DNA from: Scytolyngbya sp. HA4215-MV1
GTDB taxonomy: Bacteria; Cyanobacteriota; Cyanobacteriia; Leptolyngbyales; Leptolyngbyaceae
Length of the DNA stretch: 64,000 bases
NCBI GenBank assembly: GCA_019359045.1
Contig: JAHHIA010000008.1
Coordinates: 62,001-126,000, forward strand
Reading direction: 5' to 3'
A program made the translations under genes and the position numbers. The notes under the pieces were generated by a model that saw only the letters and a program-made list of their open reading frames with translations, did no database searches and was not told the origin of the DNA. Within the stretch, counting starts at the first letter, position 1. Each line of letters starts with the position of its first letter. Positions 38,135 through 42,083 of this stretch are shown piece after piece.

Positions 38135-39654
<1,520 letters not shown>

Positions 39655-39897
39655 TTACATGTATCTCCCCATGAGTTCACGTCTTCCACTACCTCGATGG
39701 AAAAATTCATTTCCTGCCAAACTGTCTTTTAGACCGTCTGATCTCCCTGACTGAGGGAGTAATTGAGGCAGTGAAGCTTCTTGTTGATTGGTGGTAAAAC
39801 GGGAGAAATTAGAAGGCTGTTGTCCCAAAGTTTGGGAATCAGTCATTAAAGAAACGAGCAAAGAACCGGTTAGAATGGCAGAAAAAATGGAGAGCAT
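39655..39897 (-). CDS. patX: PatX-type RGSGR signal peptide precursor
   Basis: 80 residues. The N-terminal about 20 are a hydrophobic signal-like segment (MLSIFSAILTGSLLVSLM). A polar, low-complexity Ser/Gln/Pro linker follows. Near the C-terminus lies HRGSGR (residues 67-72, bases 39682-39699), then RELMGRYM. RGSGR is the HetR-inhibiting core of PatS, and the preceding His (HRG[S/T]GR) is the mark of PatX peptides, which are exported and cleaved to make a diffusible inhibitor of HetR. Location just upstream of hetR on the same strand is the known patX arrangement. The gene is short and was not identified from homology alone; motif, signal and position agree. Confidence 0.88.
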   Translation of the reverse strand: MLSIFSAILTGSLLVSLMTDSQTLGQQPSNFSRFTTNQQEASLPQLLPQSGRSDGLKDSLAGNEFFHRGSGRRELMGRYM

Positions 39898-40232
39898 CGG
39901 TGGTGTCCGTATCAGAGTTTTCCTATTCCCTGTTACAGAGTTTTCGAGTACTCATCAGGACAGTTCCCCTGCTCACCCTAAATTGTTTTTTCTGACGGTT
40001 CTGTTTCTCCGGTTAGTGGATCTTAGCGATGTGTTAAAAGCCTAGTACTTTGGGGCGTAAGTTGGGCAACCCTTCTGAAGGAGCCAGGAGCCAGGAGGCA
40101 GAATGGTAGGTAGATTTTCGTCAAGTTCTACTAGACTTCATCACACTGATGCCAAAGTCGGAGGGATACCCACAAAAGTGCTAGCGACTTGGGCAAGCTG
40201 ATGGGCAGAGCAATGATTTTTTTGCTCTCTCA
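39898..40232. other. Intergenic stretch with the patX promoter and a repeat element
   Basis: Contains the region upstream of patX (39898 to about 40030) and the CTAG-ended element at 40042-40134. The 85-codon plus frame at 39788-40045 overlaps patX and looks spurious. Confidence 0.5.
40042..40134 (+). repeat. Dispersed 93-bp element with CTAG ends, copy 2
   Basis: A second copy of the 14896-14981 element, in the opposite orientation. It begins CTAGTACTTTGGGGC and ends TCTACTAG. It carries a GGAGCCA tandem motif at 40079-40096, one more copy than the first element. It has no coding potential. Confidence 0.7.
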
Positions 40233-42083
40233 TTACATTTGTAATTGTTCTACTAAGAGCCAATTCCCGGAGCAATTAACTTTTCCTCCAACTGTTAGAC
40301 AGGTGCCGTCCATACAATTGATGAGTTGTTGGGCGATGTCAGGTTGTAAGGTTACCAGATTTAGTTGTTTGCCGGAAAGAGAATCTGGCGCTGTAATGGT
40401 GAAGGTATAGGATTCCAATGCTGATCGATGAAAAACCCCCGAAATCATCGGGTACGTTTTTGGGGCTGACAGACTAAATTGTTGCCGATCGGCAGTTGCT
40501 CCCAGCGGACAGTTGCCGTTGTGGGGATAGGCTTCCGGCTGTTTGAGATAATAGCGTTGCCAGTTGAGCCAATCGAGATGGTTAGGGGGGAGGTTCAACA
40601 GAGGAATGATTGCCGCAGGGGCGATCGCATCCTGCAATAGGGCTTCTTGCAGTTGTGCGACTGCGAGTGCTCGGGGTTGACAATTTTGCTCAATGCAGAG
40701 TGCGGCTGCCATACCTGCGGCTTGTCCAATCCCCAAAACGACGGGTTGTAAGCGAGTTGCACCATTGGCAAGGTGGGAAACGGAAATATTTTTCTCGCAA
40801 ACCAGTAATCCATCGACTGTGACAGGAACCAGGCTGCGATAAGGAATGGTGAAAGGGGTGCCCGTCCAGCGTCCCCCCCAGCGGATGGATTTAGGCTGAA
40901 GTTCAATATCTCCACTGGGATAATGGTGATCGTTGGCGTAGTTGCCGATCGCGATCGCATCGCAGCAATTCTCTGCTTGCAAACATCCTGACACAGACAC
41001 GATCAAAGGCAGGGTAGCCACTTGTCCAGACGGAATTGGGAGAAGATCTTGCTCTCGCAGTGTGACCAGTCCTTGCAGCCGGCGACTCTCGCGGTAGTAG
41101 GGATGGAGGGCATAGGCACCTCCACCGAGGACGCTTTGAGTTTTGAGTTCTAAGGTGGAAGCGGCAGGTTCCAAAGGAAAGATGTTTTCTGCCAGCCCAT
41201 AGCGACGACCCAGTTGGGTTTGGATAAAGCGGGCAAAGCTTTGGGTATGCCAGCGGCTTTCTTGGAGAAAGGCTTGCCGTGCTGCTGTAGATCCGACCAA
41301 TCGTGCAACGCCTTCGCCATAGTCATTGCCATGGATGGGCCAATTAATCATGAAGCGATCGCCTGGTAAGCGACCGTAGTTCAAGAATTTTTCGGCACCA
41401 TACTTTGCCCAGGCTTGGGAAAATTGTTCGGGAGTGTCGTTGGGGGGAGGGGGAATTTCCGGGGTGATCGCTCCTGCGCCAAAGTCTTGCATCACCACTA
41501 CCCAAGTCGGTGCCTGGACAGGATAGCGTTGGGTCACCGCATTAGGCACGATCGGGGCGCTGGGTTCCTGAAATTCTGCCTGCAACTCCCACCCCCAACG
41601 AGAGGGAACTTCTCCCAATGCCAACAAATCACCCAACTCAGTGCCATCCAGTACCAGCTTTGCCTCAATTCGGTAGTCTTCAAACTGAACGCCACACACG
41701 CGATCGCCTTGCCTTAAGACAGCCTGAGGTGTCTGTCCAGCAATCCACCTGAGCGTTGGCAATGCTGCAACCCAATCCGCAAAAATCGCTGCACCAATCC
41801 GTGGATCATAGGTGAAAAAACTCACCCAGGCATGGTCTAATCCATGGGGCTGTCGGAATTCCAACTCACGCAAAAACGCTCCCCAAATCCCCGTTTGAAA
41901 CGCAGCCAGCTCATTTCCGTCAGGTGCCGTCACCCCTGCACTGGTGAGCATTCCTCCCAACCAAGAAAATTCACTGACGAGAATCGTGTGGGTACCTCGA
42001 CGGGCTGCTTGAATTGCCGCAGCAGTTCCACCTGCGCCTCCCCCTACAACCAGCACATCCGTTCTTAAAACTTCCATGTCCAT
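40233..42083 (-). CDS. FAD-dependent oxidoreductase
   Basis: 616 residues. The N-terminal Rossmann motif is VLVVGGGAGGTAAAIQAARRG with FAD-binding GxGxxG. The next strand ends in LVSEFSWLGGMLTSAG, typical of the FAD_oxidored (PF12831) family. An ELGDLLALGEVPS stretch and a C-terminal GIGQAAGMAAALCIEQ segment support a flavoprotein. Electron partner and substrate are unknown. It lies alone on its strand between patX and the kinase operon. The start at 42083 (MDMEVLR) has a second ATG two codons later. Confidence 0.85.
   Translation of the reverse strand: MDMEVLRTDVLVVGGGAGGTAAAIQAARRGTHTILVSEFSWLGGMLTSAGVTAPDGNELAAFQTGIWGAFLRELEFRQPHGLDHAWVSFFTYDPRIGAAIFADWVAALPTLRWIAGQTPQAVLRQGDRVCGVQFEDYRIEAKLVLDGTELGDLLALGEVPSRWGWELQAEFQEPSAPIVPNAVTQRYPVQAPTWVVVMQDFGAGAITPEIPPPPNDTPEQFSQAWAKYGAEKFLNYGRLPGDRFMINWPIHGNDYGEGVARLVGSTAARQAFLQESRWHTQSFARFIQTQLGRRYGLAENIFPLEPAASTLELKTQSVLGGGAYALHPYYRESRRLQGLVTLREQDLLPIPSGQVATLPLIVSVSGCLQAENCCDAIAIGNYANDHHYPSGDIELQPKSIRWGGRWTGTPFTIPYRSLVPVTVDGLLVCEKNISVSHLANGATRLQPVVLGIGQAAGMAAALCIEQNCQPRALAVAQLQEALLQDAIAPAAIIPLLNLPPNHLDWLNWQRYYLKQPEAYPHNGNCPLGATADRQQFSLSAPKTYPMISGVFHRSALESYTFTITAPDSLSGKQLNLVTLQPDIAQQLINCMDGTCLTVGGKVNCSGNWLLVEQLQM

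Follow-up and report, generated by a model that had tools for sequence, protein, structure and literature searches.

The hetR gene of Scytolyngbya sp. HA4215-MV1 is preceded, on its own strand, by a small open reading frame (ORF) containing the motif RGSGR, and the question raised by this locus is whether the ORF is a patX gene, and hence whether a precursor of a HetR-inhibiting peptide is encoded beside its target. The analysis was centred on a 64,000 nt stretch of one contig (the window), and the features located are listed in the table. The name PatX was reportedly introduced by Elhai and Khudyakov in 2018 (Mol Microbiol). Both the gene and its place beside hetR have already been published for related species.

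Features of the patX-hetR region, with positions counted from the first nucleotide of the window
Feature	Position	Strand	Basis or remark
hetR, 299 aa	38135..39034	minus	NF009718, 590.7 bits
17-bp hairpin with A-tract/T-tract, likely bidirectional terminator	39401..39437	minus	between patX and hetR
patX, 80-aa precursor	39655..39897	minus	ORF, motif, profile, NF047413 match
HRGSGR codons, expected mature inhibitory hexapeptide	39682..39699	minus	RGSGR begins at 39696
Inverted repeat (dyad) around predicted transcription start, potential hairpin	39906..39939	minus	fold -10.8 kcal/mol, z=-2.4
GTAACAG (GTAWCAG), extended -10-like element	39930..39936	minus	leader alignment
TCCTGA box, variant of DIF1 motif TCCGGA	39955..39960	minus	63 nt before patX ATG
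FAD-dependent oxidoreductase gene, upstream neighbour of patX	40233..42083	minus	PF12831

Assignment of the ORF to PatX

The ORF runs over 80 codons from ATG to TAA (translation MLSIFSAILTGSLLVSLMTDSQTLGQQPSNFSRFTTNQQEASLPQLLPQSGRSDGLKDSLAGNEFFHRGSGRRELMGRYM), and no alternative start was found in frame upstream as far as the previous stop codon. The precursor has a hydrophobic N-terminus, a polar linker, HRGSGR at residues 67-72 and the tail RELMGRYM. The mean hydropathy of residues 1-22 is 1.26, similar to that of relatives, and the n-region lacks K/R. The initial annotation had described an 80-residue minus-strand ORF with HRGSGR near its C-terminus, located on the hetR strand 620 bases upstream; coordinates, length, ATG, strand and motif were all borne out, and the gap between the patX stop codon and the hetR ATG measures exactly 620 nt.

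Small unannotated ORFs are common, and 95 RGxGR-like 14-mers are found in the genome under a loose pattern, both of which would agree with an open frame that arose by chance and contains RGSGR by coincidence. However, when the 1-kb region upstream of hetR was Markov-shuffled, 10 of 20,000 shuffles contained a short ORF with RG(S/T)GR close to its end. Moreover, of the 96 distinct hetR loci for which 1 kb or more of upstream sequence was available, 49 carry a small RG(S/T)GR ORF upstream on the hetR strand, while none was found antisense in the same upstream regions (0/96) or, in the 94 loci available for the downstream control, on either strand downstream (0/94). Together with the profile score and the conserved leader described below, this one-strand conservation leaves the chance reading with a negligible probability, and it was rejected.

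The hetR loci lacking such an ORF belong mainly to heterocystous Nostocales, where patX has a different location, with some of Laspinema/Oscillatoria type and single cases such as L037 and L048. In some close relatives, L037 for example, no patX was found in the upstream DNA searched. At locus L048, a leader of patX type (TCCTGAT...GCGTAATAG...CTGATATAGAC) lies ~714 nt upstream of hetR but is not followed by an RGSGR ORF, and this may be a decayed patX. The PatX of Lyngbya aestuarii (locus L111, 449-518 nt upstream of hetR) carries RGSGR twice, internally and at the C-terminus.

A leave-one-out profile built from the PatX sequences beside hetR in relatives, the kind of search against PatX peptides that the initial annotation had proposed, scored the window ORF at E=2.7e-10. 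The next independent match was a shuffle, the highest-scoring of 1,000 (E = 0.027), and among the 1,257 frames of the window none came near, save the full stop-to-stop frame of the same ORF. The NCBIfam model NF047413 (heterocyst_PatX) gave 21.2 bits, under its curated cut-off of 30, a threshold that belongs to one model and is not a biological trait of PatX. Ten relatives carrying patX next to hetR were also scored, and all of them fall under 30 bits (no hit to 28.7), whereas 30 bits is exceeded in 11 of the 12 heterocystous genomes. What the cut-off separates is therefore lineages, and a score below it is not evidence against membership. The gene had been described as easily missed, and standard models would indeed overlook a patX scoring in this range.

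Across 15 aligned PatX sequences from both lineages, H-R-G-S-G-R is invariant and the linker varies freely. Two grounds for abandoning the assignment had been named beforehand, an ORF not conserved in related hetR loci and a motif not preserved in relatives, and neither refuted it. The tail RELMGRYM had been taken as specific to this organism, a view that did not hold: RGSGRRELM is shared with the PatX of Nostoc sp. 106C and Calothrix elsteri, and nearer relatives have tails of the types RRELF, RREIF, RREFF and RRELV. In 12 of the 53 PatX encoded beside hetR the precursor ends exactly with RGSGR, and the tail is thus dispensable.

PatS and HetN have RGSGR in common with the window ORF, and the core inhibits HetR in these systems also, although the precursors differ. 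Anabaena PatS is much shorter with the motif at its C-terminus, and HetN is a ketoreductase-like protein. The extended motif HRGSGR, the hydrophobic N-terminus, the length, the match to the PatX model and the patX synteny all fit PatX, and it is most improbable that the ORF represents PatS or HetN instead. This small gene is a true patX, and the original patX-like reading can be stated as orthology, supported by the sequence profile, the motif, the promoter, the location and the conserved upstream neighbour.

Genome-wide, a pattern search for small (H/Y)RG(S/T)GR ORFs found the window ORF and no second one. Three other pattern matches were rejected, one being an HRGSGR within a 295-codon open frame and two not encoding the motif. 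RGxGR followed by a stop codon is encoded at 18 places in the pattern listing for the genome, among which there may be a short PatS; no candidate resembling PatS or HetN was recognised in this genome.

Leader, spacer and flanking genes

A DIF1 motif at approximately -35 has been described for patS, patX and hetR, and is HetZ-dependent in Anabaena (PMC7377430, PMC6133370). TCC(T/G)GA is present in all 53 patX leaders beside hetR, 57-69 nt before the ATG in 51 of them. In heterocystous patX, the form TCCGGA occurs in 10 of 11 leaders, mostly 62-63 nt before the ATG, in contrast to the TCCTGA seen here. The first three positions of the GTAWCAG element (G25, T26 and A27) are almost invariant in 35 aligned leaders, heterocystous ones included. 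A DIF1-type promoter is the most likely source of the patX transcript.

In many non-heterocystous leaders, GTATCAG is matched by CTGATAC ~9-15 nt later, forming a dyad around the predicted transcription start. A fold with z<-2 was obtained for 23 of 51 patX leaders, and the dyad is absent from the three heterocystous leaders that were folded. The covariation of the leader hairpin is not above that of shuffles, 46 of 500 of which reach its score; proof of an RNA hairpin by covariation is therefore not supported, and an operator and an RNA hairpin are indistinguishable by this measure. An Rfam search of the region returned a chance-level match only. The dyad is undescribed in the PatX/DIF1 literature compared, with Elhai and Khudyakov 2018 outside that comparison. 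Tentatively, the dyad and the TCCTGA box might together form a control element not yet described, whether as the operator of a dimeric regulator, HetZ or HetR for instance, or as an RNA hairpin gating patX translation, though this is rather doubtful. If true, the element would be a promoter-level difference between the PatX circuits of heterocystous and non-heterocystous cyanobacteria.

One further DIF1-like site, TCCGGAT...GTATCAATGA, was found in the same genome at G000:C11:203516-203548 (+) (locus L138), 84 nt ahead of a gene whose product is large (400+ aa) and apparently exported. With the pattern reversed as a control, no match was obtained anywhere in the genome. A single further site is too little for a regulon to be claimed.

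The spacer between patX and hetR includes the strong hairpin ttaaaaaacgtgctccgaaacggagcgcgttttttaa, and a generic terminator scan returned sites at 39499-39476 (-) and 39412-39426 (+). The initial annotation had placed a terminator in this spacer, and the likely terminator seen there is special to this genome rather than general to the system: any terminator-like hairpin was found in 15 of 53 patX-hetR spacers as against 9 of 53 shuffled ones, and a terminator as a family trait was rejected. Here, the hairpin suggests that hetR is transcribed separately from patX. No conserved hetR-proximal promoter was detected, the last 330 nt before hetR being unalignable among the 14 nearest loci.

On its other side, patX has the FAD-dependent oxidoreductase gene as its upstream neighbour in 10 of the 11 heterocystous loci. 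The same holds for 15 of the 36 non-heterocystous loci whose flanking sequence was long enough. As the leader and this neighbour are common to both lineages, the orthology is firm even where hetR has moved away. The gene in the window resembles heterocystous patX in its DIF1-type leader ~63 nt before the ATG and the oxidoreductase gene upstream, and its product in HRG(S/T)GR near the C-terminus, the hydrophobic N-terminus and the RREL(M) tail. However, hetR lies elsewhere in heterocystous genomes and directly downstream here, the linker of the window PatX is longer, and the precursor has 80 aa and scores below the NF047413 cut-off.

HetR and the predicted action of the peptide

Six residues, R223, E253, E254, D256, D270 and D278, hold the PatS hexapeptide in the HetR crystal structure (PMC4649674). 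All six are kept in the HetR of the window, as are the DNA contacts R62, E71 and K73, and its closest solved structures are HetR entries (3qod, 4hri/4yrv and 4ynl). In 17-18 of 53 HetRs, read by position without realignment, the residues of the hood are all displaced together, as expected from a one-residue length difference ahead of the hood.

What is established at this locus is the identity and conservation of the gene, the architecture of its promoter, its synteny and a HetR whose peptide-binding site is intact. The best explanation of the whole, and one that is very probably correct, is that patX is the gene for a HetR-inhibitor precursor, in its usual place upstream of hetR in a filamentous cyanobacterium of a non-heterocystous group, with probable Nostoc-type maturation by homology. 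In Nostoc PCC 7120, PatX is exported and processed by the peptidase PatP, and DNA binding by HetR is abolished by the hexapeptide HRGTGR, whose KD for HetR is 88 nM (PMC12756182). In addition, heterocysts are blocked by PatX overexpression, and patX restrains HetR where patS is absent (PMC7761841). By analogy with the Nostoc work, from which export, cleavage, movement and HetR inhibition by this PatX are inferred, the precursor would be exported via its hydrophobic N-terminus and trimmed to HRGSGR by a periplasmic peptidase (PatP in Nostoc). The peptide would then move along the filament and bind the HetR hood domain, taking HetR off DNA. The complete activator-inhibitor pair of the initial annotation would follow from the same analogy, the antagonism of HetR in this lineage being drawn from the Nostoc systems.

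Transcriptomes of patX, hetR and double mutants of Leptolyngbya BL0902 suggested that the effects of patX are largely HetR-independent (PMC11298460). This strain is a non-heterocystous filamentous cyanobacterium in which patX lies immediately upstream of hetR and has a predicted DIF1 promoter, as in the present genome, but its authors infer co-transcription of patX and hetR, between which a strong hairpin is found here, and it has no nif cluster (PMC11298460), whereas nifH is present here. The orthologue might accordingly act mainly on a target other than HetR in this lineage, with the adjacency to hetR an ancestral relic. The BL0902 double mutant resembled the patX mutant for oppositely affected genes (PMC11298460), and the terminator hairpin would separate the patX and hetR transcripts in the window, both of which would agree with such a target. 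Nevertheless, the hexapeptide-binding residues of HetR are all intact, and the combination of an invariant HRGSGR core with a free linker fits HetR binding as the selected function. A main target other than HetR is therefore considered unlikely, and inhibition of HetR is the preferred function of this PatX.

The patX-hetR arrangement in non-heterocystous cyanobacteria

The genome encodes nifH (G000:C23:391091-391906, locus L158; 470 bits, above the cut-off), and the organism is therefore probably a diazotroph. The arrangement of patX and hetR would group it with non-heterocystous strains. While the promoter position of patX and its oxidoreductase neighbour are common to the heterocystous and non-heterocystous lineages, adjacency to hetR is not.

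Known biology is not overturned by this patX locus. As the NF047413 cut-off misses the window PatX and all ten non-heterocystous relatives scored, such genes would be overlooked by annotation pipelines, and the leaders and peptides from the 53 loci would provide a better PatX profile. A role of HetR and PatX in necridia formation and filament fragmentation is a published conjecture (PMC7761841). A probable diazotroph with the non-heterocystous patX-hetR arrangement would be a reasonable place to ask what HetR and PatX do where heterocysts are not formed.
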